A stretch of 44,998 nucleotides of DNA from a virus. The stretch is from IMG/VR virus record IMGVR_UViG_3300037485_001620, positions 1 to 44,998 of that record. One strand, 5' to 3'. The position numbers were made by a program, and so were the translations under genes. This document shows positions 5,289 through 42,247 of this stretch, in pieces. Position 1 is the stretch's first letter; the number at the start of each line of letters is the position of its first letter. Below the pieces are notes generated by a model. That model searched no databases. It saw only the letters and a list, made by a program, of their open reading frames with translations, and was not told the origin of the DNA.

Positions 5289-5291
5289 TCT

Positions 5292-24248: not shown

Positions 24249-24300
24249 GACACCACCACTCTATCCAGCCCCCTCACAGCGCGCAATAGCAAGCCGACAG
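24249..24300 (-). promoter_or_regulatory. Early promoter module 1
   Basis: On the minus strand: CTATTGCGC with TTGCGC at 24281-24286, 17-base spacer, TAGAGT at 24258-24263, and GTGTC at 24249-24253; TTCT-N2-CG lies upstream. Drives the 24204 gene. Confidence 0.8.
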
Positions 24301-24302
24301 AA

Positions 24303-24337
24303 TAAAACAGAAAGACCGAGAAGCCGCAGCCCCTCGG
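24303..24337 (-). terminator. Rho-independent terminator after 24984 gene
   Basis: Minus-strand CCGAGGGGC-TGCG-GCTTCTCGG forms a 9-pair stem with two G-U pairs, then TCTTTCTGTTTTATT. It abuts promoter module 1, so terminator and promoter are fused in about 90 bases. Confidence 0.75.
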
Positions 24338-24345
24338 CCTTCCGG

Positions 24346-24984
24346 TCACTCTCCGAGCAGCGCCCGCACGTCGGCGGCGGTCCACCGGCCCTTGAGCCTG
24401 CCCGAGACCATCTCGCGGTTCGGGGCGCAGCGCGGATCGCAGAGGTTGCCGAGCTGCACGGCGATCACCTCGGCCGACGTCGCCACCGATCGCAAGTGAC
24501 GGGCGACGCGCCACGGGTCGATGCCATCCGTGCTCCCGCCGGTGCCGTCGATCCACAACTCCGGGCGCGGCGCGCAGGCAGGGCGCGGGCCGTAGTCTCG
24601 GCCCCTCCGCGTCGATGTCGGCAGCGGCACCGGGGGCGGCCTCGGGGTCTGCGCCACGGGCCGCGGCTTCGGCTCGGGCGGTGGGGCGTCGGCGTTGGCC
24701 GCTTGAGTCGCCCCACGGAGCGCCGAGGCAGACCGATAGGCGCCCTGGGTGCCGATCTTGCTCCGGTCCCGCAGGCCACGGATCCGGGTGTCGATCGCCG
24801 AAGCCGTCCGCCCCAGCGACACGATCAGCTCAGCGGCGAGGGCCACCGCAGCAGGCGCTGCCCTGCCAGCGACCGGCACCAAGCGCCCGCATTGGCGCAC
24901 GAAGTCGAGCAGCAGCGCGTCATCGTCGATCGTCCACGGGCCCCGATGCTGGCCCCTGCGCGGGTCGGTCTGCGGCGCGGTCAT
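24346..24984 (-). CDS. Putative DNA-binding protein with Myb/SANT-like domain
   Basis: A 212-residue protein. Residues 15-75 start W-T-I-D-D-D-ALLLDFV and end LGRTASAIDTRIRGLR, the spacing of Myb/SANT-type helix-turn-helix domains (a conserved Trp, an acidic first helix and a LGRT turn before the recognition helix). A Pro-rich linker follows, then a basic C-terminal domain with two Cys residues (NLCDPRCAPNRE). Start ATG 24984 overlaps the thyX stop. It could be a phage regulator; its immediate neighbour is a nucleotide-synthesis gene. Confidence 0.55.
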   Translation of the reverse strand: MTAPQTDPRRGQHRGPWTIDDDALLLDFVRQCGRLVPVAGRAAPAAVALAAELIVSLGRTASAIDTRIRGLRDRSKIGTQGAYRSASALRGATQAANADAPPPEPKPRPVAQTPRPPPVPLPTSTRRGRDYGPRPACAPRPELWIDGTGGSTDGIDPWRVARHLRSVATSAEVIAVQLGNLCDPRCAPNREMVSGRLKGRWTAADVRALLGE

Positions 24985-25880
24985 CGGTCGGCCCCAAACA
25001 TCGCCCGGAAGTCGCGCCACTCCCGCGCGCTCATGCCCACGTCTTCGGCGGTGGTCGGCTGGCCGCGCATCATCCGGCGGATCGCCTCGACCTCCATGCG
25101 GCTCATGCTGTAGCCGTCGCGCCGGTAGTCACAGAAGGCGGCCCACGTCTCGGGCACCCACTGCTCGACGATCCGGGCGATGGCCTCGGCGTAGCGCCTG
25201 ATCTCCAACTGCGCGTGGCCGTCAAGGCGCAGCGCCAAGAAGTGCAGCAGGTTGTGAAGGTCCATCGACACGGTCATCTCGGTGTATTGACACACCGGCC
25301 CCACCATGCGGGCGATCTCCGGGGCGACGGCGGGCAAGTTGAAGGCGCCGGGACCGTGGATCGGATCGGCCGGAACTCCGGTGGTGAGCGCCTTCACGGC
25401 GCGGACGGCACCATCGGCAGCGCTGACCATCTCGCCCCATGCCTCCTGGGCCTCGCCGGTCGGCAGCGGCTTGCCCCGGCCCTGTTTGTTGTCGGTCGGG
25501 GGCCCGGCCATGTCGCCAAGATCAGGCACATAGACGTCATCCGGGAGGGTGGTGTAGCGCGCCGAGGCTTCGTTGTAGCTACCGGCCCGATGGCGCATCC
25601 ACTGGCGGGCGACGAAGATCGGCAGCCGGACGTGGAGGACAAGGCGCGCCATCTCAAAGGGCGACGTGTGCCGGTGGCGCATCAAGTACCGGATCAACTT
25701 GGCGTCGGCCTCGGGCGCGCGCTCGGCGTCCTGGCGGGCGTAGCTGACACGGGCGGCGCGGGCGACCGAGGCGTCGTTGCCCATGTAGTCAACGACCCGG
25801 ATGAACCCGGTTCCGTTGTCGAGAACGTCGAGGGGGACGCCGATCAGGGGTGAGATCGCGGAGGAACGGGGGCGGGTCAT
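24981..25880 (-). CDS. thyX: Flavin-dependent thymidylate synthase
   Basis: Makes dTMP from dUMP using methylene-tetrahydrofolate and FAD. The signature RHRAGSYNEASARY (residues 96-109) fits the ThyX motif RHRxxSxNExSxRY exactly. Other family segments are FARQWMRHR-type upstream residues, and CQYTEMTVSMDLHNLLHFLALR. I start at ATG 25880, preceded by GGAGCCGACC, giving 299 residues; an upstream TTG is less likely. Together with the reductase at 37408 and the MazG-like gene it lets the phage supply dNTPs. The downstream gene overlaps by 4 bases. Confidence 0.95.
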   Translation of the reverse strand: MTRPRSSAISPLIGVPLDVLDNGTGFIRVVDYMGNDASVARAARVSYARQDAERAPEADAKLIRYLMRHRHTSPFEMARLVLHVRLPIFVARQWMRHRAGSYNEASARYTTLPDDVYVPDLGDMAGPPTDNKQGRGKPLPTGEAQEAWGEMVSAADGAVRAVKALTTGVPADPIHGPGAFNLPAVAPEIARMVGPVCQYTEMTVSMDLHNLLHFLALRLDGHAQLEIRRYAEAIARIVEQWVPETWAAFCDYRRDGYSMSRMEVEAIRRMMRGQPTTAEDVGMSAREWRDFRAMFGADR

Positions 25881-26236
25881 GGTCGGCTCCAAAGGCTGAG
25901 TTGGCGGGGGTCAGGGGTAGGGGCGGCGGTCGGTTCGGGCGCTTCGTCGTCGGGCTCTGGCTCCGGCTCCGGTTCGGCGGCCGGTGCCGAGGCGATCAAG
26001 CGCAGCGGCGGGCGTGGGGCAGTCGGCTCCCACCCGTCGGCGGCGGCGATGGCTGCGGCTTCGGTGGGGTGGCGGCCGAGGCTGGCCCAATCGTCCGGGT
26101 TGCCCCGGTGTGTGGCGGCGATCCAGTCGCCGGAGGGCAGGCGTTCCACCACGAGGTGCCAGCCGTCGGCGCAGGTGCGGATCAGGCGGTCGGCGCGGAT
26201 GCCGGGGGCATGGACCCAGTCGGGGTGGGTGGTCAT
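25877..26236 (-). CDS. Unknown protein with DUF-like small domain
   Basis: A 119-residue protein. Residues 15-75 hold DGWHLVVERLPSGDWIAATHRG...ASLGRHPTEAAAIAAADGW, a compact beta-alpha pattern. The tail is Pro/Glu (EPEPEPEPDDE) and disordered. Start ATG 26236 overlaps the upstream stop. Unknown function. Confidence 0.5.
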   Translation of the reverse strand: MTTHPDWVHAPGIRADRLIRTCADGWHLVVERLPSGDWIAATHRGNPDDWASLGRHPTEAAAIAAADGWEPTAPRPPLRLIASAPAAEPEPEPEPDDEAPEPTAAPTPDPRQLSLWSRP

Positions 26237-26712
26237 GCCGCACCCCGCTCGGCCGCTTCCTTGCGCGCCAGGGCGCCGCGGAGGGCGCGGGCAAGGTCGC
26301 CGGTCTCGCGCCACTCCGCCACCCACGTCACCGGCAGCGCCTCGGGCCGACCTATGCGGGTGAGCATGGCGCCGAGCTGGGCGTGGTGCTCAAGCTCCGG
26401 GTAGCCCGCCAGCAGGCGGCTTTGCAGCGCCTCGATGACCCGCATGGCGCCGCTGCTATCGCACGCCGCCCACATCTCCTCCAACTCAAAGGCGACCCAC
26501 TGCAGCGCCGCCGCCTTGCCGTCTGCTCGCCCCTCCTGGCGCGCGTCGAGGAGCTGATAGGCCAGCCCCTGCGCCTTGTGGCGACACTCCAGGAGCCTCG
26601 CGTAGACAAGCTCGTTCAGCTCCTTGTTGTCGTCGTACACCTTGCGCCAATGGGCCTCCCGCTCCTGGGACTTGGCCAGCGCCGCCCGCAGCTCCTCCAC
26701 CTCGGCGCTCAC
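26233..26712 (-). CDS. Unknown protein with N-terminal coiled coil
   Basis: A 159-residue helical protein: a coiled coil at 3-45 (EVEELRAALAKSQEREAHWRKV), helices in the middle with one Cys, and a basic C-terminal helix (LARALRGALARKEAAERG). It overlaps both neighbours by 4 bases. No motif recognised. Confidence 0.5.
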   Translation of the reverse strand: MSAEVEELRAALAKSQEREAHWRKVYDDNKELNELVYARLLECRHKAQGLAYQLLDARQEGRADGKAAALQWVAFELEEMWAACDSSGAMRVIEALQSRLLAGYPELEHHAQLGAMLTRIGRPEALPVTWVAEWRETGDLARALRGALARKEAAERGAA

Positions 26713-27347
26713 CCCTCACCCCCGGCACGCCGGACGTAGAGCGACGGGTGCGGCAGGGCGATCGGTTCGTCGTCGTCGAGCAGGACGATCAGTGGGCAGG
26801 TGGGCGACTGCGGGATGATCACGGTGCCGGTCTTGCCGAGCACGGTGCCGTAGAGCCGCAGCCCGCTGATCACGCCGAGGTCATACGGGCTGTCTTCGTC
26901 GCCGATCCGCACCCGGTCGCCGACTTGGAACTGCTCGCCGCAGCCCACGCCGTAGGGGTAGGGCGGCAGGACCGCCGCGCGCTGGTAGGCAGCGATGCCT
27001 CGGCGCTGGGCGGCGGTGAGGCCGTCGGCGGCTTCGATCTGCTCGGCGAGGGGTGCGGCGCTGTCGATGAGGGCGTCGGTGGCGCGCAGGTAGGCGGCGG
27101 CGTCGAGGTCGTTGAGTTGATCGGCGAGGGTCTGCGCCTTCGACCAACCGGCGTCGGTCACGGGGAAAACGATGTAGCCCAGGCGATCCGAGGTGTTCCA
27201 GATCACGGCGGCCTCACGGTCGCCGAGGATGCGATCGGCGACCTCGCCGGTCAGCGGGGTCAGGTCGCGGTCGGCGATGATGGTGTTGTCGAGGGCGTTG
27301 TCGAGGCGGACGGTGAAGCGGTCGAGGCTCAGGGGGTCGGGGGTCAT
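26709..27347 (-). CDS. Unknown two-part protein
   Basis: A 212-residue protein. The first half is mixed alpha-beta (DRFTVRLDNALDNTIIADRDL). The second half is a beta-rich domain with EQFQVGDRVRIGDEDSPYDLGVISGLRLYGTVLGKTG, a pattern like small SH3-type barrels (KOW/DUF-like). It has a GGAG site 8 bases before ATG 27347 and no module promoter directly upstream, so it is probably read from promoter module 2 through the 27591 gene. Confidence 0.5.
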   Translation of the reverse strand: MTPDPLSLDRFTVRLDNALDNTIIADRDLTPLTGEVADRILGDREAAVIWNTSDRLGYIVFPVTDAGWSKAQTLADQLNDLDAAAYLRATDALIDSAAPLAEQIEAADGLTAAQRRGIAAYQRAAVLPPYPYGVGCGEQFQVGDRVRIGDEDSPYDLGVISGLRLYGTVLGKTGTVIIPQSPTCPLIVLLDDDEPIALPHPSLYVRRAGGEG

Positions 27348-27380
27348 GGTCGGGCTCCGTTGGTGTTGGTGGCGCAAGCG

Positions 27381-27405
27381 GGCCGCCCCTTCGGGCCGGG
27401 CGGCC
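27381..27405 (-). terminator. GGCCGCCC/GGGCGGCC terminator, second copy
   Basis: Perfect 8-base stem with a 9-base loop, directly after the 27591 gene stop. The neighbouring GGGCCGGGCGGCCGGTGG is shared with the copy at 23923-23947. Confidence 0.55.
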
Positions 27406-27420
27406 GGTGGCCCGTGGGGT

Positions 27421-27591
27421 TCAGGCTGCGTACTTGGCGGCCAAGGCGGCGATCACCTTGGGGCCGGTGCAGCTTGCGGCAAGCACGCGGGCCAGGGCGT
27501 CGGCAGGGGTCAGGCCACAAGCGATCCAGCCGTCAACCTTGGTGCTCATGCTGGTCATCATGTCGGCGAAGAGGCGATCGTGGCTGGTCAT
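27421..27591 (-). CDS. Small helical protein in its own transcription unit
   Basis: A 56-residue protein that starts MTSHDRLFADMMTSMS and ends AALAAKYAA. A middle WIACGLTPADALARVLAAS is helical. It has a promoter (module 2), a GGAG ribosome binding site 10 bases upstream and a terminator, so the unit looks intentional despite its size. Unknown function; too small to classify. Confidence 0.65.
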   Translation of the reverse strand: MTSHDRLFADMMTSMSTKVDGWIACGLTPADALARVLAASCTGPKVIAALAAKYAA

Positions 27592-27638
27592 GGGGCCGCT
27601 GCTCCGGTCTGCGCGGGGTCGGCTTCGTTGCCCCCCGG

Positions 27639-27695
27639 CGACACACAGACTCTATCGGCTCGCGCTCAACCATGCAATAGCTTTGCGGTAGAATA
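27639..27695 (-). promoter_or_regulatory. Early promoter module 2
   Basis: CTATTGCAT with TTGCAT at 27672-27677, 17-base spacer, TAGAGT at 27649-27654, GTGTC at 27640-27644, TTCT-N2-CG upstream. Drives the 27591 gene. Confidence 0.8.
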
Positions 27696-27722
27696 ATCAC
27701 ACAAAGCCGGGAAGCCGCACGG

Positions 27723-28529
27723 TTACGCCGTCTTCGCCGCTGCCCACAGCGCCACACCCAGGGCCTCGCCGAGATCGACGGGGAGGTCTGCGCCGCTTGA
27801 GCCGATCGGCAGCCCGAAGCGCGCGAGCAGGTCGAGCGGCCAGCCTCCGGCGAGCTGGGCGCCCATCGCGGCAGGGCACGGCTTGACGTCGCGGCAGACC
27901 GACCGCTTCCTGCGCTGGCTCGCGTGGGGTGCCGCCGTGGCGCGCCATTCCGACGGGGCGGGGCGACCGAGGGGCTTGCTCACGACGTCGATCAGGGGCC
28001 CGGACACCAGCCCGGCGAGCCACGCCACCCCGAGGCCGGCGGCGGCGAAGCGTCCGCTGTACTGGCGCTCGCAGGCGCCATAGATCGGGAGGTCGGCACT
28101 GGCGGCCTTGGAGGCCTCAACCGCGAGCGCATCCCCGATCATGTGTAGACTCAAGGGCATCGCGCTGGCCGCGGGCCACCACGTCGGCTCATAGACCGTG
28201 CCCAACTTGCGCTGGCGCTCAGTCCAGAACACCGCAGCCACCAAGGCTGGCGGGCCTGACGCGCCGCAGCGCAGGATCACGGCCGCCCCGGTCGCGCCGG
28301 GGTCGATCCCGACGACGATCCGGGGGGTGGCGCCGAAGCTCAGCGGCAACGGGGCCTGCGGCTCGGCCTGCACCTTGGGGGCCTTGGCGCGCTTCTGGCG
28401 GGCCGGCTTCGGGGGTGCGGCGTCGGCCGGGGCTACGTCGGCGGGCGTGGCCTTGGGGGCACGCCGGCGGGCAGGGGCGCGGCGTGGCAGGGCGGCGTCG
28501 GGAAGGTCGGCTGAGCGGCGGCGGGTCAT
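27723..28529 (-). CDS. RuvC-like resolvase
   Basis: A 268-residue protein with a 68-residue basic, Pro/Ala-rich N-terminal extension and then IVVGIDPGATGAAVIL (D76), the first strand and catalytic Asp of RuvC/RNase H-fold nucleases. A late LGEALGVALWAA segment fits the end of such folds. It would cut Holliday junctions or branched packaging substrates. The extension is unusual for the family and may bind DNA. Working with YqaJ exonuclease and RecT-like protein is inferred. Confidence 0.8.
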   Translation of the reverse strand: MTRRRSADLPDAALPRRAPARRRAPKATPADVAPADAAPPKPARQKRAKAPKVQAEPQAPLPLSFGATPRIVVGIDPGATGAAVILRCGASGPPALVAAVFWTERQRKLGTVYEPTWWPAASAMPLSLHMIGDALAVEASKAASADLPIYGACERQYSGRFAAAGLGVAWLAGLVSGPLIDVVSKPLGRPAPSEWRATAAPHASQRRKRSVCRDVKPCPAAMGAQLAGGWPLDLLARFGLPIGSSGADLPVDLGEALGVALWAAAKTA

Positions 28530-28723
28530 CGTGACTGCCGAAGGTGCGGCGGCACGTCACGGGATCGGTCACTCAGCGCCGAGATCAGCCGGTCATCCCA
28601 GGCCGTCGGGCGCTCGCGGCGGCGCAGGCCGGGGGCGCCTTCGTCGCGGTCGGCTGCGGCGGCGCAGGCGGCGCGGCGCTCGGAGGTGGTGCGCGTGCGG
28701 CGCATGATGAGGCGGCGGGTCAT
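28526..28723 (-). CDS. Small Arg-rich protein
   Basis: A 65-residue protein (ATG 28723, overlapping the HNH stop) with a basic N-terminal half (MTRRLIMRRTRTTSERR) and a DRLISAL...RDVPPHL tail. Not recognised; nucleic-acid contact possible. Confidence 0.45.
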   Translation of the reverse strand: MTRRLIMRRTRTTSERRAACAAAADRDEGAPGLRRRERPTAWDDRLISALSDRSRDVPPHLRQSR

Positions 28724-29202
28724 CGGACGTGCCCCCATGCTTTTCCGGTGTTGATGTAGCTGATCACCGGAGGCGTCACCCCAAAATCATCCGCGATCAC
28801 CCGTTGAAGATCCCCGGCCGCCAGCCGTTGCCGGATAGATCGCACGTCATCCTCGCATAGTTTGCGAGTTCCAGACCTCTCACCTCTTGGGGTATTGGCG
28901 CGGCCCTTTGCTACCTTGTCGCGGTGGTTCTGCGCTGGCGTTCCGAGCCACAAGTGCTTCGGATTGACGCAGCATGGATTGTCGCAGCCGTGGCAGACAT
29001 GAAGCGGTCCAGGATCAGCCACGAAGGCTGCATAGGAAACACGGTGCGCGCCCTTGTACTTCCGGCCATTCGGTCCCCAGTAAAGCACGCCGTATCCGCC
29101 TCCGTCCTTGTTCCCGGTCCAAAGCCAGCATCCGGTGGATCGACTCACCAGGACGTTTCGCTTGATAAGCGCCTGCGTTTCCTTGGTTGATCTGGCGCTC
29201 AT
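28720..29202 (-). CDS. HNH homing endonuclease
   Basis: A 160-residue free-standing HNH protein. The core reads GAHRVSYAAF ... HVCHGCDNPCCVNPKHLWLGT, the HNH-3 pattern with paired Cys residues for zinc. The last 50 residues look like a helix-turn-helix DNA-binding module (LQRVIADDFGVTPPVISYI). Base composition is visibly lower in GC than neighbouring genes, suggesting arrival by transfer. It sits within an overlapping gene string, so it did not break the local operon. Confidence 0.9.
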   Translation of the reverse strand: MSARSTKETQALIKRNVLVSRSTGCWLWTGNKDGGGYGVLYWGPNGRKYKGAHRVSYAAFVADPGPLHVCHGCDNPCCVNPKHLWLGTPAQNHRDKVAKGRANTPRGERSGTRKLCEDDVRSIRQRLAAGDLQRVIADDFGVTPPVISYINTGKAWGHVR

Positions 29203-29585
29203 CGGTCACCTCGCGCCGCATGGGCATCAACGACCGCCCGCACGATGCCGGCGATCCCGTGCGGGTCGATCGCGCCCCACTCGCGCAGAAGCGGCAGCAT
29301 CCCTGGCGGAAGGGTCGCCGCGCTCAGCCACAGTTGCGCGCCGTGGGCAGCATCGGCGGCAGGAGGGGGGCACGGGGTCGGCGCTTCGGGCGGCACGCCG
29401 GGCAGGCGCGCAGGGGTTGACGTGCCGGGAGCGCAGGGCCAGATCGCGGCGAGGGCTGCGGCCGGGGTGGCGTGGCCGATGGAGCGCAGGTAGCCCACGC
29501 GGGCGGCGCCGATGTTGATCCCGGCGGCGTCGCGGGTCAACCGGCGGACGGTCGGCACGTCGTCGGGGGCGAGGTCGTCGATCAT
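29199..29585 (-). CDS. Unknown protein
   Basis: A 128-residue protein with an N-terminal part DDVPTVRRLTRDAAGINIG, a Pro-rich middle and a helical C-terminus (PGMLPLLREWGAIDPHGIAGIVRAV). Start ATG 29585 overlaps the upstream gene. A weak helix-turn-helix in the first 45 residues is possible. Confidence 0.45.
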   Translation of the reverse strand: MIDDLAPDDVPTVRRLTRDAAGINIGAARVGYLRSIGHATPAAALAAIWPCAPGTSTPARLPGVPPEAPTPCPPPAADAAHGAQLWLSAATLPPGMLPLLREWGAIDPHGIAGIVRAVVDAHAARGDR

Positions 29586-29947
29586 GGGGTGTCTCCGTCG
29601 GCGGCCGGGGCCCACGTCGGCGGGGCCTGCCACTCAAGGGGCGGCGCAGGGGCCTTGGGGCGCACCACGTCGGCGGGCGCCCACGGGGTTAGGTCTGCGC
29701 CCGTTGCAGCGGCGAGGGTCGCCACGTCGGGCCACAGCGCGTCCGGCACGTCAAGCCCGCGGAAGGGCGCGATCGGCGGGGTGCGCGTCCGGCGCCACGC
29801 TGAAACGGCCGTGCGGGTGCAGCCGATCAGCGCGCCGAGGGCGGCATCGGGAATCCGGCCAGCCAAGGCAAGGCGGGCCGGGTCATCTTTGGCGGGGTAC
29901 TGGCGCCGCGGCCTGTCTGGCGCGGGCGCCGGGCGGGTGCGCGGCAT
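29582..29947 (-). CDS. HTH DNA-binding protein
   Basis: A 121-residue protein with a likely helix-turn-helix at 25-65 (LAGRIPDAALGALIGCTRTAVSAWRRT), where IGCTRTAVSAWR is a typical turn and recognition helix. The N-terminus is basic. It is the first gene after promoter 8 (29966-29994), so it could be an early regulator of downstream genes (resolvase, HNH) or of its own promoter. Confidence 0.65.
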   Translation of the reverse strand: MPRTRPAPAPDRPRRQYPAKDDPARLALAGRIPDAALGALIGCTRTAVSAWRRTRTPPIAPFRGLDVPDALWPDVATLAAATGADLTPWAPADVVRPKAPAPPLEWQAPPTWAPAADGDTP

Positions 29948-29965
29948 GGGGGCTCCTTTCGTGGC

Positions 29966-29994
29966 AGGGTAGCCCAGCGGGTGAGGGCGCGCAA
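29966..29994 (-). promoter_or_regulatory. Early promoter 8
   Basis: CTATTGCGC with TTGCGC at 29989-29994, 17-base spacer, TACCCT at 29966-29971. The flanking TTCT and GTGTC parts are absent. It overlaps the 3' end of the RecT-like gene region. Confidence 0.65.
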
Positions 29995-30004
29995 TAGCAG
30001 GGCG

Positions 30005-31315
30005 CTACATGCTGCGGAGCGTCTTCACGGCCTCGGTGACCACCCATTCAGCGGCGGCGGGCGAGATGTCGTCGTCGTTCCAAGTGCCGCCCTTTTTGAC
30101 AGTCCCAGCGGCAGCGCGGCGCAGGGTGGAGGCCATCGCCTCACCGACGTCGTCCCAACTGAACTTCGACTGTTGCCCACCAACGGCAGCCTCGATCCGG
30201 TCGCGGATGTCAGCGACGCCGATCGGGCGTGGCGCGGGCTGCTCGGGCTGCTCGGGCTCGGCGGGCGCTTCGGGCTGGGGGCGGGCCTGGATGTCGGCCA
30301 GCGCCCCGGCGACCATCTTGCGATGCTGGTCATGGGTGAGGTTGTCGCGATCGACGGTCTCTCCGGTGGTTCGGCTGGCGATCTGGAGCAAGGCAAACTG
30401 CTTCGACAGCGCCCGCTCCACGATCTCGCCGTCGGGGGCCTGGGCGCCCAGCCAGCCCCTCACATCGGCGAGCGCCGTGTAGATCGTCAGTCCGGACGGG
30501 CCGCCGGTGGGCTCCGGGGTGGGCTCAGGCTCCGCGGGCGGCGCCGCGGCGGGCGTGGGCTCGGCGGCGAGTTGGCGCGGGGCGGCGGCAGCCTCGATCG
30601 TCAGGGCGCGCGGGGCGACGGGTCCGTGGGCGCCGACGATGCTCGGGATGAGGCTGGCCTGAGGCACGATGCCACGGGAGACGGCGATCGAGATCGCCTT
30701 GGTCGCGGCCATGCCGACGGCATCGGTGGCCCAGCCGCCGCCACGGTCGGAGCCTTTGTCTTTGCGACTGCCGATCTCGGCGGCGCTCACCCAGGCGGTG
30801 ATCCGCTCGCCCGTCCGCAGGTCATCGACCCGCACAGCCACGCCACGGATGTCTCCCCATGCCACGGGGCGGTCATCGGGGTGGAGGTCGAGGTGCGCCA
30901 CGTCGCCGTCTTCGGTCAGCTCCAGCTTGTCCGACCGCCCAACCACGATCGCCCGGACGTTGGCCCCGGCCGCGCGCGCCATCGCCAGCCGGCCGCGGGG
31001 ACTGGGGCGCCCGGTCGGCCCACCGCCCTTCTGGCGGAACAGGTAGCCGGTCGCGCCGGGGTCCGACTGCCCACCGGGGATCAGGCCGTCGCGGGCCAGG
31101 GCGTAGAGCGCGGACCCGATCTGGTCCTCGGGGGCGGTGTGCCACTGAACGGCCTCCTTGCCGTCGATCGACGCGCCGGCAAGGCCCGCCACAGCGGCGG
31201 CAAAGGCGCGGGCGTAGGCCACGACGGCCGGCGGCGCGGTCGAGGTCGGGCCCTGGTGACCGCAGGCGAAGAGGGCCGTGATGCCGGCGGTCTTGGTGAT
31301 CTCTTTGATGTCCAT
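30005..31315 (-). CDS. RecT-like single-strand annealing protein
   Basis: A 436-residue protein. Residues about 60-215 resemble RecT/Bet recombinases: QIGSALYALARDGLIPGG and ATGYLFRQKGG, then strands with VRAIVVGRSDKLELTEDGDVAHLDL. A Pro/Glu/Ala linker (about 250-275 and 350-370) separates two extra helical domains, the last ending WVVTEAVKTLRSM. It would pair with the YqaJ-type exonuclease at 33278-34540, forming a phage recombination system. Larger than classical RecT because of the extra C-terminal domains. Divergent, so family assignment is by pattern. Confidence 0.7.
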   Translation of the reverse strand: MDIKEITKTAGITALFACGHQGPTSTAPPAVVAYARAFAAAVAGLAGASIDGKEAVQWHTAPEDQIGSALYALARDGLIPGGQSDPGATGYLFRQKGGGPTGRPSPRGRLAMARAAGANVRAIVVGRSDKLELTEDGDVAHLDLHPDDRPVAWGDIRGVAVRVDDLRTGERITAWVSAAEIGSRKDKGSDRGGGWATDAVGMAATKAISIAVSRGIVPQASLIPSIVGAHGPVAPRALTIEAAAAPRQLAAEPTPAAAPPAEPEPTPEPTGGPSGLTIYTALADVRGWLGAQAPDGEIVERALSKQFALLQIASRTTGETVDRDNLTHDQHRKMVAGALADIQARPQPEAPAEPEQPEQPAPRPIGVADIRDRIEAAVGGQQSKFSWDDVGEAMASTLRRAAAGTVKKGGTWNDDDISPAAAEWVVTEAVKTLRSM

Positions 31316-31352
31316 GATTGATCCGGGGTGGTTTGGTTTGGTGGGGCGCGGG

Positions 31353-31490
31353 TTATCGGCGCGTGATGTTGGCGTGCTGCTCGGCCATCTCGTCGATGGT
31401 CCGCAGGATGCCGGTGGTAGGGTGCGCGCCGGAGCCGGGCGGCGCGCAGGGGTTGGCGTCCTCGGCGCCGTGGTGGGCTACATCCAGCCG
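31353..31490 (-). other. Protein-like open frame without ordinary start
   Basis: Between the 20-residue ORF and the RecT-like gene a frame reads DVAHHGAEDANPCAPPGSG then TTGILRTIDEMAEQHANITRR and stops at TAA 31353-31355. The C-terminal part looks like real protein, but I find no ATG or GTG upstream except an internal ATG at 31388. It might be entered by reinitiation or by a shift at the 20-residue ORF's end. Confidence 0.3.
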
Positions 31491-31540
31491 CCGTTGCAGG
31501 CGGCGGCGAGGGCGGCGAGGATGGCGGCGAGGGTGCTCAT
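31478..31540 (-). CDS. Possible 20-residue leader peptide
   Basis: MSTLAAILAALAAACNGGWM, with an AGGAG site 6 bases before the ATG. It is the first open frame after promoter module 3 and its stop region overlaps the next frame. A hydrophobic start and short length suit either a small membrane peptide or a translated leader of the recombinase mRNA. Confidence 0.35.
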   Translation of the reverse strand: MSTLAAILAALAAACNGGWM

Positions 31541-31638
31541 GGGGGCTCCTGGGGTCAGCGCCGGGCCCGGCGGCGCTGCGGTGTTGGTGAGGGCGCCGGG
31601 TCGCCCAGGGGGGTCAGGTGGGGCTGCGTCGCCCCGAC

Positions 31639-31695
31639 ACACTGGGTCTATCGGGTCGGCACCGGGCTTGCAATAGGCGCGCGGCAGAATGATAG
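31639..31695 (-). promoter_or_regulatory. Early promoter module 3
   Basis: CTATTGCAA with TTGCAA at 31668-31673, 17-base spacer, TAGACC at 31645-31650; GTGTC ends near 31636 and TTCT-N2-CG lies upstream. Drives the 20-residue ORF and the RecT-like gene. Confidence 0.8.
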
Positions 31696-31721
31696 CGGAA
31701 AGTCGGGAAGGGCGAGGGGCG

Positions 31722-32114: not shown

Positions 32115-32159
32115 TGTCTGCTCCGGGTCTGCGGTGCGCTCCGTGCGCCCCGTCTTTCT

Positions 32160-32218
32160 GACACCACGAGTCTATCCAGGCCGGCTAAGCCTTGCAATAG
32201 CAAGGCGCGAGAAAGTTA
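32160..32218 (-). promoter_or_regulatory. Early promoter module 4
   Basis: CTATTGCAA with TTGCAA at 32192-32197, 17-base spacer, TAGACT at 32169-32174, GTGTC at 32160-32164, TTCTCGCG upstream. Best matched to module 5: the two share most bases from the CTTTCTCTAAC upstream box to the -10. Confidence 0.85.
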
Positions 32219-32244
32219 GAGAAAGTCGAGAAGGCTGATCAATA

Positions 32245-32288: not shown

Positions 32289-32675
32289 TCAAACCCGGAG
32301 GGCGGCCTGGAGGGCGGCCTGGACCGCAGCGCGCTGGCCGCGCAGGCCGTCGCTGACCACGAGGTCGGAGATCCGGCCGCCCTTGACCGCGAACCAAGCG
32401 GCGGCGCGGCCGATGTCAGCCTTGAAACCGGAACCGTCGCGCTCGATGAAAGCCGGCCCAAGGGCGCCCAGAACCACCTCGCGGCAGGCAGGCGCCGGGA
32501 CGCTGGGGCCGACCTTGACCCAGGGGTTCGTCGCGCCGACCGGGGCAAGGCCGGTCCCGCCGCAGCGGAAGCACAGGCCGTTGTGGATGCTTGAGAACGC
32601 CATGATCCGGCCGGAGCCGTCGCACTTGTCGCAGGGGGTCTCGATCTTGGCAGCGGTCTGGGCGGTGGCGTTCAT
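32289..32675 (-). CDS. DnaJ-type zinc-finger protein
   Basis: A 128-residue protein whose first 42 residues carry two C-x2-C-x-G-x-G motifs: CDKCDGSG (C15, C18) and CFRCGGTG (C35, C38), the zinc-binding pattern of DnaJ. There is no J domain. The rest is mixed alpha-beta with GFKADIGRAAAWFAVKGG and a C-terminal helix. Such short zinc proteins occur in phage early regions and may act as adaptors to host chaperones or as regulators. Transcribed by module 5. Confidence 0.7.
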   Translation of the reverse strand: MNATAQTAAKIETPCDKCDGSGRIMAFSSIHNGLCFRCGGTGLAPVGATNPWVKVGPSVPAPACREVVLGALGPAFIERDGSGFKADIGRAAAWFAVKGGRISDLVVSDGLRGQRAAVQAALQAALRV

Positions 32676-32717
32676 GGTCTGCTCCGGTCGGCGGGGCTTG
32701 GTTCGGCGCCCCCCACA

Positions 32718-32775
32718 CCAGCAGTCTATCCAGGCGCCTTACACCTTGCAATAGCAAGGCGCGAGATTGTTAGAG
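32718..32775 (-). promoter_or_regulatory. Early promoter module 5
   Basis: CTATTGCAA with TTGCAA at 32746-32751, 17-base spacer, TAGACT at 32723-32728, a GTGTG variant downstream, ATCTCGCG upstream. Drives the zinc-finger gene. Confidence 0.85.
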
Positions 32776-32823
32776 AAAGGTCGGGAGCGGCGCGTGGCTC
32801 GATGTTCCCGGCGATGGAGGCGG

Positions 32824-35406: not shown

Positions 35407-35447
35407 GGTGTCCTCGTGTCGGCTGGCGGCTTCATCGCCGCCGCTCC

Positions 35448-35510
35448 CGACACCCTCAGCCTATCGGGGCACGGTTGGGCGCGCAATAGCTGGCCGGTAG
35501 AAAGTGTGAA
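35448..35510 (-). promoter_or_regulatory. Early promoter module 6 (leftward side of divergent pair)
   Basis: CTATTGCGC with TTGCGC at 35481-35486, 17-base spacer, TAGGCT at 35458-35463, GTGTC downstream and TTCT-N2-CG upstream. Drives the 35406 gene. Confidence 0.8.
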
Positions 35511-35559
35511 GATTGTTGAGGGTGCCGTGATGGTCGGCGCTTTGGTGTTTGTGGCGCGC

Positions 35560-35595
35560 GGCTATTGCGCTGCGGTGGACGGTGGGGTAGGATGG
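35560..35595 (+). promoter_or_regulatory. Early promoter 7 (rightward side of divergent pair)
   Basis: CTATTGCGC with TTGCGC at 35565-35570, 17-base spacer, TAGGAT at 35588-35593. The only rightward copy of the CTATTGC module, about 80 bases from module 6. Drives MazG-like, DnaN-like and probably the reductase gene. Confidence 0.8.
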
Positions 35596-35650
35596 CTGGG
35601 CGCTGCGGCGGGCTCGGAGGGACCGGGTCGGCGGCGACGGAGGGCAGACG

Positions 35651-37314: not shown

Positions 37315-37349
37315 TCAGGCTCGCAGGGGTGGACCGGCCCCCGGCGTGT

Positions 37350-37360
37350 GGTACGCTGGG
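37350..37360 (+). promoter_or_regulatory. Possible promoter before reductase gene
   Basis: GTGTGGTACGCTG gives an extended -10 (TG-G-TACGCT) about 50 bases before the start, in a 93-base gap. No convincing -35 is present. GGAGG lies at 37397-37401 before ATG 37408. Reading through from promoter 7 is equally likely. Confidence 0.35.
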
Positions 37361-37407
37361 GGTCTTCGTGCGGTTTTTGGTGGCGCCGTCGGGCGTCGGA
37401 GGTGTGC

Positions 37408-39519
37408 ATGGGTGACGTGGTGATGGGCGCTGGGGCGCTCGATCGGGTGGTGGGGCCTCGGGGTGAGCGGGTGCCGGGGCTGCTCTGGGCGCCGACGTGG
37501 GATCAGGACCGCGCGGGGTGCATGGCCGAGGTGACTGAATGGCTGGCCGATCTCAGTGATGACGACGGGGTCAAGGGCCTGCCCGCCGGGGTGCGGCTGG
37601 CCTCGGAGGTGGTGCGCTTGCGGACCTATGCCAAGGTCAAGGCCGATGGCGAGCGCGAGACGTGGCGGGAGACGGTGATCCGGTGGGGTGCCTACATGCT
37701 CCACCGGCTGTGGATCACGACCACCGATAGCGGGGCGCTGAGCGAGCTTGAGCGGGCCGTGCGGGCGGTGTTTCGGCGCGAGGTGATGCCCAGCATGAGG
37801 GCCTTATGGTCGGCCGGTGACGTGCTCGACTCCAACGACATCGCGCTCTACAACTGCGCTTTTGCCCCGGCTGACAGCGTCGCGGTGTTCTGGGAAAGCC
37901 TGTACATCTTGATGCACGGGACCGGCTTTGGGTTCAGCGTTGAAGAGCAGTTCGTGTCGAGGTTGCCGATCCCGGAGGTGCCGCGCGGGACCATGCCCCA
38001 GCCTCACGTCATCGAAGACTCCACCGAGGGCTGGCGGAACGCGGTAGAGGTCGGCGTTTTGACGTGGTTCGACGGTCAGGGGATCACGTTTGACTACTCG
38101 CAGATCCGGCCCGCCGGGGCGAAGCTCAAGACCAAGGGCGGCGAAGCGTCCGGCCCGGAGCCCTTGCGGCGCTACTTGGAGGGGTTGCGGGAGGCAATCC
38201 AGCGCGCCGGGGCCGTGCGGCGGCAGTTGACCACGGTTGAGGTGCATGACTTGCTGTGCCTTGCGGCCCGCGCTGTGCAGGTCGGTGGGGTGCGGCGCTC
38301 GGCGATGATCTCGTTCAGCGATCGGGATGACGTCAAGATGCGCTGGGCGAAGCACTACCCGGCGGCCTATGGGCTCGGCGTCGCCATTCCGGCCGAGCGG
38401 ACCCAGGCGAACAACAGTTGGGTGTGGCTTGACGGCACCACGCGGGCCGACTTCGATCAGGAGTGGGCGGTGCTCCAGACCAGCAACGCGGGCGAGCGGG
38501 GGATCTTCTCGCCGGCCCGGATGGCGTACCGGGGCGTTGACCTGCGCGCGAACCCGTGCGTCGAGATCGGCTTGGCTTGGCGCGATGCGGCCGACCCGAT
38601 GGGCGGCGACGGCGGCGGGCAGTTTTGCAACCTGACCAACGTCATCCTGCGCCCGTGGGACGACCTCGAAAGCGCGCGCGCCAAGGTCGCTTTGGCTTCG
38701 TTCCTCGGCACGCTCCAGGCTTCGTGCACCCGCTTCAACGGCCTCCGCGCTGGGTGGACTGACATCACGCGCCGGGATGCGTTGCTCGGGGTCGGGCTCA
38801 GCGGGCAGGCGGACTGCCCCCAGGTCACGTCGTCGATCGCGAAGCTCGCCGACCTCAATGCGCTCGCCGTCGATGCGAACGCTTGGTGGGCCGGGGTTCT
38901 CGGCATTTCGCAGGCGGCCGGGGTGACGTGCGGCAAGCCCGACGGCAACTCGTCGGCGTTCTTGGGCTGCGCTTCGGGCATCCACGCGCACCACGATCGC
39001 TACTACCTCCAGCGGATCACGGTGTCGGCTCAGTCGCCGATCTGCGCGGTGCTCCGCGAGGCCGGGGTGCCTTGCATCCCTGGCACTCCGGGCGAAGTCG
39101 AGCCGAACGCTTGGCTCTTTGAGTTCCCGATGGCGGCGGCTCCGGGGGCGCTCTTGCGGACCCAAGAGACGGCCTTGAGTCTGCTCGATCGGCTCGACGT
39201 GGTCAATCGGGGGTGGCTCGCCGAGCGCGGGCACAACCAGTCGGTCACGGTCAACGTTCGGCCCGATGAGTGGGACGGGGTGAAAGAGCGGATCTGGGAG
39301 CGGGGCGACGCGGGCGAGCTTGGCGGGGTGTCGTTCTTCCCGGACGAGGGCGCGGTCTACTACGGGCAGCCCCGGACGTCGCTGAGCGTTGAGGAGTACG
39401 AGGCCCGCCTTGCTGCGCTCCCCGCGGTCGATTGGGCGCGGCTCGCGGAGTACGAGACCGGCGTGTCGGAGGGCGCTCAGATGTTGGCCTGCGGTGGCGG
39501 GGCGTGCGAGCTGCGGTAG
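37408..39519 (+). CDS. Class II (B12-dependent) ribonucleotide reductase
   Basis: A 703-residue monomeric reductase of the RTPR/NrdJ type, making deoxynucleotides with adenosylcobalamin. Cys residues fit the known set: C150 in YNCAF, C384 in NPCVEI (with N382 and E386), C407 in FCNLTN, and C695/C700 in the C-terminal CGGGAC. The spacing between C384 and C407 is larger than in classical enzymes because of a Gly/Asp-rich insert, which may matter for function. Needs cobalamin from the host. Third gene of the rightward block; strong hairpins follow. Confidence 0.93.
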   Translation: MGDVVMGAGALDRVVGPRGERVPGLLWAPTWDQDRAGCMAEVTEWLADLSDDDGVKGLPAGVRLASEVVRLRTYAKVKADGERETWRETVIRWGAYMLHRLWITTTDSGALSELERAVRAVFRREVMPSMRALWSAGDVLDSNDIALYNCAFAPADSVAVFWESLYILMHGTGFGFSVEEQFVSRLPIPEVPRGTMPQPHVIEDSTEGWRNAVEVGVLTWFDGQGITFDYSQIRPAGAKLKTKGGEASGPEPLRRYLEGLREAIQRAGAVRRQLTTVEVHDLLCLAARAVQVGGVRRSAMISFSDRDDVKMRWAKHYPAAYGLGVAIPAERTQANNSWVWLDGTTRADFDQEWAVLQTSNAGERGIFSPARMAYRGVDLRANPCVEIGLAWRDAADPMGGDGGGQFCNLTNVILRPWDDLESARAKVALASFLGTLQASCTRFNGLRAGWTDITRRDALLGVGLSGQADCPQVTSSIAKLADLNALAVDANAWWAGVLGISQAAGVTCGKPDGNSSAFLGCASGIHAHHDRYYLQRITVSAQSPICAVLREAGVPCIPGTPGEVEPNAWLFEFPMAAAPGALLRTQETALSLLDRLDVVNRGWLAERGHNQSVTVNVRPDEWDGVKERIWERGDAGELGGVSFFPDEGAVYYGQPRTSLSVEEYEARLAALPAVDWARLAEYETGVSEGAQMLACGGGACELR

Positions 39520-39532
39520 ACTGAGCCGACCA

Positions 39533-39597
39533 CGCCGGGGTGAGTAGCCCCGGCCCGACGGCCGCTCCGGTGACTCGGGGCGGCCGTCTTCTTTGGG
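39533..39597 (+). terminator. Tandem hairpins and terminator after reductase gene
   Basis: First hairpin GCCGGGG-TGAGTAG-CCCCGGC (39533-39553), then GACGGCCGC (39557-39565) with GCGGCCGTC (39580-39588), perfect 9-base stem, followed by TTCTTT. Good rho-independent terminator. Confidence 0.8.
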
Positions 39598-39598
39598 C

Positions 39599-39651
39599 TT
39601 GCGCGCCGTCAAGTCAGCAGATACCATACATGTGCGTGTGTGTGTTAGGAT
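39599..39651 (+). promoter_or_regulatory. Promoter(s) after the reductase terminator
   Basis: TTGCGC (39599-39604), 17-base spacer, TACCAT (39622-39627). A second extended -10, TG-T-TAGGAT (hexamer 39646-39651), follows a GTGTGTGT run. They read into a short segment without a convincing protein gene. Confidence 0.6.
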
Positions 39652-39713
39652 CTGCATCCTGACGACGCTCTGAGGGCTGTCCAGCGGAAACTGGGCGGCC
39701 CTCTTTGCGTTTG
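39635..39713 (+). ncRNA. Candidate small RNA
   Basis: About 75 bases between the promoter at 39599 and a terminator-like hairpin at 39672-39703 (GAGGGC...CCAG / CTGG...GCCCTC, then TTTGCGTTT). Inside is a small hairpin, AGGAT-CTGC-ATCCT. No start codon with a binding site lies in it. Isolated promoter, two hairpins and terminator suggest a structured RNA, not proven. Confidence 0.45.
39672..39713 (+). terminator. Terminator of candidate small RNA
   Basis: GAGGGC (39672-39677) pairs with GCCCTC (39698-39703) and inner CCAG with CTGG; tail TTTGCGTTT. The region to 39818 contains no further gene I can support. Confidence 0.6.
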
Positions 39714-39818
39714 GGGACTCGGCGAGGTAGCAGAGGACAGCGCATCCGCCACGCGCGGAAGGCGTCACGAGGCCGTCGGGGGATGCTCCGGCGGCCTCAG
39801 CTTTGGGCGGCAAGCGAA

Positions 39819-39845
39819 GGCCCCGCGCGGCGAACCGGCGGGGCC
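39819..39845 (-). terminator. Terminator after methyltransferase gene
   Basis: GGCCCCGC and GCGGGGCC, perfect 8-base stem with an 11-base loop; on the minus strand TTCGCTT follows. It ends the second leftward block, facing the rightward terminators. Confidence 0.6.
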
Positions 39846-39870
39846 TTGGTGGGGCGGCGAGGGGGTCGGG

Positions 39871-41175
39871 TTAGAACAGGCGGCCTTGAACGGGTGGGGT
39901 CCATGCGGGCGGGCGGTTCAACGTGACCCACTCCCGCTTTTGTTTACTGAACGTCCGGGCCTGTCCGATCCTTTCACCCGTGATCTCAACGGCGTGCCAG
40001 CCCTCGGCGACCAGCTCGGGGATCGGCTCGGCTTCACTGATCGCGACCACCGCCCCAGCGGCGGCCCAGCGGCGGGCGAGAATGACCACCTCGGCGCGGC
40101 CGAGATTGTCCGCATAGCCGGTGGTCCCGACGTAACTTGGGTCCATGTAGGCCACGGTGCCGGGCGGGAGCGCGGGCGGGTCGATGTCGCGGGCGTCGGG
40201 GTGGATGAGGGCGCCGTCGATGGTGTCGAGCGCGTGAAGGGCGGGCGCCGTGATGCTAATGGCCGGGTTGCCAGGATACCGCTCGCCGGTCTTGGGGTTG
40301 TGTCCGTACCGCTCAAAGAACGTCGGGCCGTGGCCGTAGTCCCCGAGGATGCTGCCCGCCTGAACGGTCGCCCACCTCGCCACCTCGCGCGGGTCCACCT
40401 CGCGGGCATCGGGGTGGATGAGGGCGGGCACGTCGCCGGGCGCTGCGTCGAAGGCCTCGGCAGTGCGCTCCGGGGGCGAGCAGAACGCCGCGCCGCCGAA
40501 GGTGCACCCGCCGTCGCCCGTGTTGATCCAGCGGCCCTCGGCGTCCGACCATGCGGTGTTGATGAGCCGGTTGGAGGCGGTGATCTGCGCCCAGCGCGCC
40601 ACCTCGCGCGGGTCGATGTGCCGGGCGTCGGGGGTGATGGTGGCGGGGAGGGTTGTGGTGCTGGCGACGTTGCAGGCGAGCGTCTCGCGGCTGATCGCGC
40701 GCCCGGCTGATCCGTCTGGTGTCTCCTCGCGCGATCCAATGAAGTCGCCATCGGTGATGCCGCGCGCCCACGCTTGGGGCACCGCCCGCGAGACAACAAA
40801 GGCCCACCGCGCCACCTCCCCTGCGGCCACCGGCCCCTCCGGCAACCGCGGCGGCCCCTCGGCGCGCAGGCGCTCCCACAGCGCGCGCGGGTCTTCGGCG
40901 GCCCACCCGCGGATGATGGCGGCGGCGGCGCGGGCCAGGGTGGCGTCGCGGTAGGCGTGGAGGAGGAGGCGCACGCCGGGGTCGGGCTCGCACCACAGGT
41001 AGGCGGCGGCGCGCTGGCCGGGGATGAGGCCGAGGATTCTTAGCAGGCAGTCGGAATATCCCGACTTACTTCCCATCCGGCTAACGGGTGGCTTTGCCCC
41101 GGCGCGGTGGAGCCGCAGGCTGAGCGCGGCGGTTCCGGCGCAGAGTTCGACGAAGAGCGGGATGGGGGTGGTCAT
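39871..41175 (-). CDS. Adenine-type DNA methyltransferase with internal repeats
   Basis: A 434-residue enzyme. The SAM site is at the start (FVELCAGTAALSLRL), a D12-class feature MGSKSGYSD follows near 35, and the catalytic motif DPSYVGTTGY lies near residue 345, so DNA N6-adenine methylation is likely. Between them an insert has three related units, HPDAR-x-x-DPREVARWA-type, near residues 180, 252 and 323 (the third partial). This is unusual for D12 enzymes and could be a target-recognition region. It may protect phage DNA from restriction. GGAG lies 8 bases before the ATG. Confidence 0.8.
   Translation of the reverse strand: MTTPIPLFVELCAGTAALSLRLHRAGAKPPVSRMGSKSGYSDCLLRILGLIPGQRAAAYLWCEPDPGVRLLLHAYRDATLARAAAAIIRGWAAEDPRALWERLRAEGPPRLPEGPVAAGEVARWAFVVSRAVPQAWARGITDGDFIGSREETPDGSAGRAISRETLACNVASTTTLPATITPDARHIDPREVARWAQITASNRLINTAWSDAEGRWINTGDGGCTFGGAAFCSPPERTAEAFDAAPGDVPALIHPDAREVDPREVARWATVQAGSILGDYGHGPTFFERYGHNPKTGERYPGNPAISITAPALHALDTIDGALIHPDARDIDPPALPPGTVAYMDPSYVGTTGYADNLGRAEVVILARRWAAAGAVVAISEAEPIPELVAEGWHAVEITGERIGQARTFSKQKREWVTLNRPPAWTPPVQGRLF
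40165..40640 (-). repeat. Degenerate internal repeats in methyltransferase gene
   Basis: Three stretches (about 40165-40205, 40370-40417, 40595-40640) share the plus-strand sequence CGGGTC-GA/CA-CCT/TGT-CGCGGGCATCGG-type and code for PDAR-x-ID/VDP. They are similar but not identical, so the duplications are not recent. Confidence 0.65.
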
Positions 41176-41357
41176 GGCGTCGGCTCCGTTAGCAGGGCTT
41201 CAATCTCGCGCTCCAGCACGTCAAGCGCGCTGCTCGCCGCACTCGGGTCGTACAGGCACAACCGCTCCTGCTCGCGGGCGCGCCGATAGGCGGCCCGAAC
41301 CAAGGCGAGCGCCAGCATGATGGCGCGGCGGTGGGCGGTGGCTTCGTCGGGGGTCAT
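41172..41357 (-). CDS. Small helical protein, unknown
   Basis: A 61-residue, almost wholly helical protein (AHRRAIMLALALVRAAYRRAREQ and SSALDVLEREIEALL). It overlaps the methyltransferase start by 4 bases and lies 2 bases from the SSB stop, so it is within the replication operon. Unknown. Confidence 0.55.
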   Translation of the reverse strand: MTPDEATAHRRAIMLALALVRAAYRRAREQERLCLYDPSAASSALDVLEREIEALLTEPTP

Positions 41358-41359
41358 GG

Positions 41360-41830
41360 TCAGAAGGGTAATCCATCATCGTCTCCGCCCCAGCCGTCCG
41401 ACTGCGCCGGGGCCTCGGGCTGGCTCCGGCCGGTGCCGCGGCTGCGGTCGGGCGCCGGGCGGTCGGTCCTCACGGTGGTGCCTCCGTCCTCGCGGACTTC
41501 GTCGCCCTTGCCGCCCAGCATGCGGATCTCATTGGCGACGACTTCGGTGGACCAACGCTTGTTGCCGTCTTTGTCGTTGTACTCGCGGGTTTGGAGCCGG
41601 CCCTCGATGTAGAGCATCTTGCCCTTCTTGCCCCACTTCTCCATAACCTCGGCGGTCTTGCCGAAGGCGACGACGCTGTGCCACTCGGTGTGGTCTTGCC
41701 AGGAGCCGTCCTGGGCCTTGCGCCGGTCGGTGGTGGCGAGCCGGAGGTTGGCGATCACGGTGCCGCCGCCGTTGCGGATCTCGGCGTCTTTGCCGAGGTT
41801 GCCGACGAGGATGACTTTGTTGACGGTCAT
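41360..41830 (-). CDS. ssb: Single-stranded DNA-binding protein
   Basis: A 156-residue SSB. The OB fold shows MTVNKVILVGNLGKDAEIR, IANLRLATTDRRK, TEWHSVVAFGKTAEV, KKGKMLYIEGRLQTREYNDKDGNKRW, all hallmark segments. A disordered Arg/Pro/Gly region precedes the acidic tip DDDGLPF, which normally recruits partner proteins. It would coat single strands in replication and recombination by the phage helicase, RecT-like and YqaJ-type proteins. Confidence 0.95.
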   Translation of the reverse strand: MTVNKVILVGNLGKDAEIRNGGGTVIANLRLATTDRRKAQDGSWQDHTEWHSVVAFGKTAEVMEKWGKKGKMLYIEGRLQTREYNDKDGNKRWSTEVVANEIRMLGGKGDEVREDGGTTVRTDRPAPDRSRGTGRSQPEAPAQSDGWGGDDDGLPF

Positions 41831-42183
41831 GGGGTCTCCGAGGGGTTGTTGATGGTGGCACGGTAGGCTTCGGCGGTCTTTTCCTGGCGGTCGATGAGGT
41901 CGATGAGCAGGTCGGCGATCTGCCTACCAACACCCTCGGGGTACCGCTTGCCGGCCCAGCCGAAGCGGGTCGGTGCGCGGAAGGTGGAGACCCAGTCGAG
42001 GCCGGTCGCGCCGAAGCCGGTGAGCAGGTCGCGGGCGCCTTCGGGGTGGATGTCGCGCAGGTGGGGGACGAATGGAGCGAGGGCGGCGCGTACTTGGTCT
42101 CCGGTGCACGCCTCGACGTGGGCGTCTTCGGCGGCGTCGAGGGTGTCGTAGTCGGGATCGGGCTCGGTGGGCTCGGTGGTCAT
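41827..42183 (-). CDS. Unknown acidic protein
   Basis: A 118-residue protein (MTTEPTEPDPDYDTLDAAEDA...) with an acidic start and a more basic second half, including GLDWVSTFRAPTRFGWAGKRY and GRQIADLLIDLIDRQEKT. It overlaps ssb by 4 bases and is the first gene after promoter 9 (42219-42247). Not recognised; replication accessory role possible from context. Confidence 0.55.
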   Translation of the reverse strand: MTTEPTEPDPDYDTLDAAEDAHVEACTGDQVRAALAPFVPHLRDIHPEGARDLLTGFGATGLDWVSTFRAPTRFGWAGKRYPEGVGRQIADLLIDLIDRQEKTAEAYRATINNPSETP

Positions 42184-42218
42184 GGGGGCTCCGGGTGCCG
42201 GGTGTTGCTGACCTGGGG

Positions 42219-42247
42219 AGTGTAGCGCGGGCGGGGATGGGGCGCAA
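42219..42247 (-). promoter_or_regulatory. Early promoter 9
   Basis: CTATTGCGC with TTGCGC at 42242-42247, 17-base spacer, TACACT at 42219-42224; ATCTCGC upstream resembles modules 4 and 5. Drives the 42183 gene, ssb and methyltransferase. Confidence 0.75.

Follow-up and report, generated by a model that had tools for sequence, protein, structure and literature searches.

A 44,998-base virus record from IMG/VR (IMGVR_UViG_3300037485_001620, called the window below over its whole length) carries a reiterated, strictly spaced promoter module with conserved DNA outside its -35 and -10 hexamers. An initial annotation had proposed such a module from this one sequence, and we find it again in related phages. 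We read it, with a probability of roughly 0.55, as a family of strong sigma70-type promoters for the host RNA polymerase, fitted with UP-like boxes and a protective leader hairpin and lying mainly before small, fast-changing genes. The shell of this reading (host-polymerase promoters followed by a leader stem-loop) is well supported. Relatives were found in IMG/VR by protein and pattern searches: with the window record as G000, they are G001 (37.9 kb), G002 (49.0 kb), G003 (48.3 kb), G004 (52.1 kb), G005 (27.0 kb) and the more distant G008 (44.2 kb). All records come from metagenomes and may be incomplete; genes were called with a home-made codon-usage predictor, and start codons are therefore approximate.

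The heptamer CTATTGC occurs exactly nine times in the window, and all nine copies are on the strands first annotated: their starts are 24289, 27680, 29997, 31676, 32200, 32754, 35489 and 42250 on the minus strand and 35562 on the plus strand (the -35 coordinates originally given differ from these by 8 bases for the minus-strand copies and by 3 for the plus-strand copy). The distance from CTATTGC to TANNN(T/C) is a constant 19 bases at 9/9 sites, which corresponds to 17 between the hexamers TTGCNN and TANNNT. The annotated spacing of 17 is thus correct between hexamers but not when counted from the heptamer (CTATTGC, 17 bases, TANNNT: 0 matches), and TANNNT itself fits every site but 31676, which ends in TAGACC. 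Written as CTATTG-N20-TANNN(T/C), the core is observed 9 times in the window against 0.017 expected from Markov-1 simulated genomes, and four relatives contain 5, 9, 7 and 8 sites (29 in total) against 0-0.08 expected per record. All 38 core sites in these five main records are intergenic (one has a 6% overlap onto a mispredicted start); most lie a few tens of bases before a gene start, with predicted transcript starts typically 15-53 nt from the start codon. The looser pattern TTG(A/C)-N19-TANNNT, scanned in six records, has 41 intergenic matches just upstream of predicted starts and 0 within predicted genes, far from the equal frequency inside coding sequence that would have spoken against a promoter; another 11 lie elsewhere outside genes or straddle them. 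Two further IMG/VR pattern-scan matches (L006 and L025) look like chance matches on unrelated contigs.

Judged by its sequence, the core is a sigma70-type promoter. The -35 is CTATTGC in G001 and G002, and CTATTGACC or CTATTGAC at most sites of G003 and G004, with identical spacing. The identification goes beyond mere resemblance because the arrangement in two relatives, TTGACC-N17-TANNNT, combines a near-canonical -35 with that same spacing and is ordinary sigma70-type. A strict E. coli consensus scan does not call the core sites. At the expected start position, 7 bases beyond the last base of the -10, stands an invariant G, which is taken as +1. We also considered a sigma54 (-24/-12) reading of the TTGC, which is ruled out: there is no conserved GG ten bases upstream. 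The initial annotation had offered a modified polymerase as one possible reader of the module. We regard it as very improbable that the whole module is read by an RNA polymerase or sigma factor of extended footprint, encoded or modified by the phage, even though conservation spans about -65 to +5 and CTATTG(A/C)C-N18-TANNNT is not enriched in 21 candidate-host-related genomes (relatives of a Sphingomonadaceae metagenome-assembled genome, MAG; 6 matches vs >20 for the reversed pattern), both of which would suit such an enzyme. TTGACC-N17-TANNNT is, however, ordinary sigma70, and the class B and capsid-gene promoters described below have the same core. The Sigma70_r4 domain is found in 0/6 records (the control was found in 14/14 genomes), and because no phage sigma-factor gene appears in these six records, a modified polymerase does not seem to be needed. 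A search for the RNA polymerase family (RNA_pol) likewise found nothing, in records that may be incomplete and with no working positive control.

At one class of sites, class A, conservation extends well beyond the core. A class A weight matrix gives 22 full-flank sites 51-74 bits; nothing else in five genomes scores more than 13, and no score in shuffled genomes rises above 9. Since the matrix was trained on the same sites its absolute scores are inflated, but the gap to the rest is still wide. Building a motif and scanning related genomes with it, the check that had been suggested, therefore separates class A completely, and no class A site without CTATTG turned up in the five genomes scanned. 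Numbered from G = +1, box1 (ACTTTCTT-like) occupies -65 to -58 and box2 ((A/T)(A/T)TNTGCGC-like) -52 to -44; CTATTG(A)C stands at -38 and ATAGNNT ends at -7. The extra boxes annotated at the first six sites are present: TTCT-N2-CG is exact in 5/6 and GTGTC, 4 bases past the -10, in 5/6, with one mismatch in each at 32754. The class A promoters of the window are as follows.

24258-24316, minus strand: P1; box1 CTTTCT, box2 ATTCTGTCG, CTATTGC, TAGAGT.
27649-27707, minus strand: P2; box1 CTTTGT, box2 ATTCTACCG, CTATTGC, TAGAGT.
31645-31703, minus strand: P3; box1 ACTTTCC, box2 ATTCTGCCG, CTATTGC, TAGACC.
32169-32227, minus strand: P4; box1 ACTTTCT, box2 TTTCTCGCG, CTATTGC, TAGACT.
32723-32781, minus strand: P5; box1 CTTTCT, box2 AATCTCGCG, CTATTGC, TAGACT.
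35458-35516, minus strand: P6, leftward from a divergent region; box1 ACAATCT, box2 TTTCTACCG, CTATTGC, TAGGCT; same site in G001.

The upstream boxes are direct repeats, not inverted ones. Their T-rich cores (-63 to -59 and -52 to -48, centred near -61 and -50) are separated by 10 or 11 bases, one helical turn. AT content is 66% and 51% in the T-rich box regions, in a genome of 70% GC, and each box has conserved C/G. UP-element contact sites for the C-terminal domain of the RNA polymerase alpha subunit (alpha-CTD) are A/T-rich and lie between about -40 and -60. We favour alpha-subunit contact because the boxes are AT-rich in a GC-rich genome, sit one turn apart, tolerate a one-base shift and are near the UP region; most likely, then, they would form an UP-like element, contacted by the alpha subunits, that strengthens the binding of RNA polymerase. 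The conservation beyond a sigma factor's footprint, from which the initial annotation had argued for a common regulator or modified polymerase, does hold for these boxes, which lie past the -35, but it need not demand a regulator because the boxes overlie a region that alpha subunits can touch. Two other identities were rejected. No class A site has a TTAA upstream, as the CtrA sites (TTAA-N7-TTAA) of alphaproteobacterial phage promoters would; and ACTTTCT as the U-tract of an upstream terminator finds a stem directly before it at G003 40016, G003 38018 and G000 24289, and most sites have none.

The downstream box, GTGTC, makes better sense as RNA, namely as the 5' leg of a leader stem-loop, than as a further piece of promoter DNA. 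Class A transcripts are predicted to start within GTGTCGG or an equivalent, whose complement (CCGACAC, CCGACC or equivalent) follows 25-35 bases on, just before GGAG. Class A leaders are more stably folded than shuffled sequences, with a mean fold z of -1.49 vs -0.71 in other gene leaders (p = 0.003), and the first 7 nt have a pairing probability of 0.78 in class A vs 0.51 in class B, the second class of sites. A leader's own legs also pair better than swapped ones (627 and 205 of 20,000 permutations reach the real value under two leg definitions), an effect not seen in class B. GTGTC as a DNA box is rejected on the strength of G004 and G008, in which GGGGCC or similar replaces the letters while the hairpin is kept at the same place. 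Given the predicted start, a stable stem is thus expected to begin right at the 5' end of class A transcripts or a few nt from it; exceptions are the poorly fitting leaders of 31676 and G003 38018, with hairpins that are weak or offset. Rfam returned no match. The predicted stem-loops of the window are listed below.

24215-24253, minus strand: P1 leader stem-loop, GTGTCGG...CCGACCAC, before GGAG and ATG 24204.
27605-27645, minus strand: P2 leader stem-loop, before ATG 27591.
31620-31635, minus strand: P3 leader stem-loop, GGGGC...GCCCC; GTGTC lies outside the minimum-energy fold.
32125-32165, minus strand: P4 leader stem-loop, before ATG 32114.
32686-32719, minus strand: P5 leader stem-loop, before ATG 32675.
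35416-35453, minus strand: P6 leader stem-loop, GTGTCGG...CCGACAC, fold z = -5.2, before GTG 35406.

Class B sites (29997, 42250 and 35562 in the window) have the -35/-10 with CTA in common with class A but lack box1 and a strong hairpin; most copies keep a T near -48. Counterparts of the three window sites precede the corresponding genes in relatives. In a wider scan, the TTG(A/C)-N19-TANNNT core minus CTA was found before the capsid genes of four phages, and CTA precedes TTG in 32/41 of the promoter-like sites; CTA marks nonstructural promoters, because the capsid-gene promoters have the core without it.

35535-35593, plus strand: rightward divergent promoter, back to back with P6, serving the 35651-36148 gene; TTTGTGGCG, CTATTGC, TAGGAT.
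29966-30011, minus strand: class B promoter before a small gene for a helix-turn-helix (HTH)-like protein; CTATTGC...TACCCT, no box1, no leader hairpin.
42219-42264, minus strand: class B promoter before gene 41827-42183 and the gene for single-stranded DNA-binding protein (SSB); TAATCTCGC, CTATTGC...TACACT; same site in G001 and G002.
5291-5319, plus strand: capsid-gene promoter, comparison class; TTGCAG-N17-TACGAT, without CTA.

Directly after the TTGC-N19-TA promoter of the capsid gene, its leader (5288-5399, plus strand) holds a strongly conserved noncoding stretch, CCCACGGTCGCACCGTGTAAAAAAGCGTAGGCCGG, which is very similar in G002, G003 and G004 and contains a CACGG/CCGTG hairpin.

We infer from this arrangement that host RNA polymerase most likely switches the small genes on strongly, together and early in infection. 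It would recognize CTATTGC or CTATTGACC as the -35, a 17-base spacer and ATAGNNT as the -10, and begin transcription about 7 bases later at the invariant G. The GC-rich stem-loop at the transcript start, ending just before the Shine-Dalgarno sequence, would most likely protect the short messenger from 5'-end-dependent decay; as the Shine-Dalgarno lies close to the hairpin, a role in translation is also possible. A bolder proposal, which we consider rather unlikely, is that the module is a composite unit new to phages, in which a regulator reads the tandem box (-65 to -44, plus CTA) at all class A promoters and the hairpin controls message life or translation. One portable cassette would then dictate timing, strength and stability to whatever small gene follows it.

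Several observations weigh against our preferred interpretation of host-polymerase promoters with UP-like boxes and a protective hairpin. Box1 is asymmetric, keeps a single orientation throughout, has conserved C residues and reaches -65, past a standard UP element; box2 extends into GC-rich GCGC; and CTA (-38 to -36) never varies in class A but is missing from capsid-gene promoters. A specific DNA-binding protein would account for these features at least equally well. As for the hairpin, RNAalifold found no consensus structure when 12 leaders, which have indels, were aligned with plain MAFFT, and covariation support is moderate; overall, the support for the hairpin is genuine yet moderate. 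A live rival, to which we give appreciable though lesser weight, accepts the sigma70-type promoters but takes the boxes, perhaps together with CTA, as sites of a dedicated phage or host regulator that activates or shuts off a nonstructural regulon, two units being bound in direct repeat one turn apart. Besides the sequence specificity and strict orientation of the boxes, this proposal can draw on the similar extended start-associated sequence (ESAS) promoters of Adephagia, for which repression by an unknown regulator has been suggested (PMC11373665). A further argument is a small predicted-HTH protein whose gene follows a class B promoter, here as well as in relatives.

29582-29947, minus strand: 121-aa predicted HTH protein, candidate regulator; class B promoter here and in relatives.

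The predicted three-helix HTH spans residues 23-54 (local pLDDT, a model-confidence score, about 80). Its Pfam support is weak, however (best E-value 0.02), and we treat the protein as a candidate regulator and a candidate for binding the boxes, nothing more. The one-base variation in box spacing (10 or 11), which suits flexibly tethered alpha-CTDs, also counts against a dedicated regulator.

The products of class A genes are small (20-209 aa in the window, mostly 56-150 aa in relatives), have almost no family matches and differ between relatives, while the module persists. Such turnover would be expected if the repeats were mainly recombination junctions or mobile cassette ends for swapping small genes, with promoter activity secondary; moreover, 24289, 32200 and 32754 belong to an 81-nt repeat family, and about 40 nt are almost identical between G000 32754 and G003 40016. 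We nevertheless hold this explanation to be highly improbable: conservation sits in promoter elements with free spacers, not in one continuous repeat, and the -35/-10 letters, their spacing and the distance to the start are promoter-like. A related idea, that class A genes are closed cassettes with a specific 3' hairpin, was rejected: hairpins are common after these genes, but shuffle-corrected scores barely differ from those of other genes (p = 0.09). Two class A genes (ends at 23962 and 27421) are followed, directly after the stop codon, by a 40-base, 95% identical repeat (23923-23962 and 27381-27420) that forms a strong GC hairpin. The class A product of 32289-32675 (minus strand) has a CxxC zinc-ribbon region with a weak Anti-TRAP match below the Pfam cut-off, and G002 likewise has a zinc-ribbon-like gene after a class A promoter. 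The first frame after P3 (31478-31540, minus strand) is a 20-codon frame, MSTLAAILAALAAACNGGWM, with similar tiny frames ending in CNG/CNGGW in G002 and G003; it is possibly a leader peptide or a small membrane protein.

The window has the gene content of a tailed phage. Genes for terminase, capsid and tail point rightward between 1 and 22 kb; from 22 to 35.4 kb runs a leftward block of mainly small genes, the presumed early region; a rightward block with a beta clamp and a B12-type ribonucleotide reductase comes next, and then a leftward block with SSB and helicase. The phage apparently belongs to an uncultured, undescribed group, because neither its capsid protein nor a conserved 615-aa structural protein, probably the portal, has a match among isolate phages in phage records. 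Within the searched region, only ThyX (FAD-dependent thymidylate synthase; 24981-25880, minus strand) resembles isolate phages (of Rhodobacter and Synechococcus) at the DNA level. Further contigs of the group, of 62-65% GC, sit in one Sphingomonadaceae MAG (L052, RFPL01000023.1, and contigs C16 and C30 of G019); they are the sole hint of a host, and the link could be a binning artefact.

For this phage group the module supplies a transcription map and an exact motif for locating early-type genes, which here encode small unknown proteins that are likely host-takeover candidates; it also turns the choice between alpha-CTD and regulator into a directly testable question. Phage T4 offers two comparisons. 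Its early promoters are 'uber' UP/-35/TGn/-10 promoters with additional consensus regions (PMC2988021), and our module resembles them as a large set of host sigma70 promoters whose conservation goes beyond the hexamers, apparently into the alpha-CTD/UP region as well, and presumably also in strength and timing. T4, however, has an A/T-rich UP element and TGn, whereas the module has CTTTCT and ATTNTGCGC-like boxes, a CTA in front of the TTG and a 5' hairpin, and lacks TGn. In T4 middle promoters a MotA box centred at -30 replaces the -35 (PMC2988021); these too form a phage promoter set in which a conserved sequence particular to the phage overlaps the -35 region, but here the -35 is at the sigma70 position, with 17-base spacing and TTGACC in relatives. 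With regard to the leader, 5' stem-loops protect messages in E. coli and Bacillus; a 5' hairpin can stabilize mRNA and impedes RppH, and stabilizing stem-loops include those of bla with an added hairpin, ompA and papA (PMC3997798). Those cases and ours share a stable stem that lies ahead of the ribosome-binding site, at or near the (here predicted) 5' end of the transcript; the difference is that here the hairpin, with its putative stabilizing role, is attached to a phage promoter family.

Among published systems, the ESAS set of cluster K mycobacteriophages (Adephagia, TM4 and relatives) comes closest; in Adephagia it comprises seven intergenic 46-47 bp copies with SigA-like hexamers at 17-18 spacing (PMC3203893, PMC11373665). 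The ESAS has an imperfect 15-17 bp inverted repeat, is conserved across subclusters, has little support for an RNA hairpin and adjoins a 13-bp start-associated sequence, GGGATAGGAGCCC (PMC3203893, PMC11373665). Both systems reuse multiple intergenic, extended sigma-type promoters, of about 50 bp in ESAS and roughly 60 bases here, before different small genes. Here, in contrast, a direct repeat at about -61/-50 and a downstream RNA hairpin take the place of the inverted repeat, the host group and genome differ, and the start-associated sequence is absent, the leaders ending in GGAGCAGACC- or GGAGCCGACC-type start regions. On sequence grounds, then, the module is not a member of the ESAS set but appears to work alike, a second, independent example, beside cluster K, of one extended promoter reused before unrelated small genes, here with a built-in 5' hairpin.

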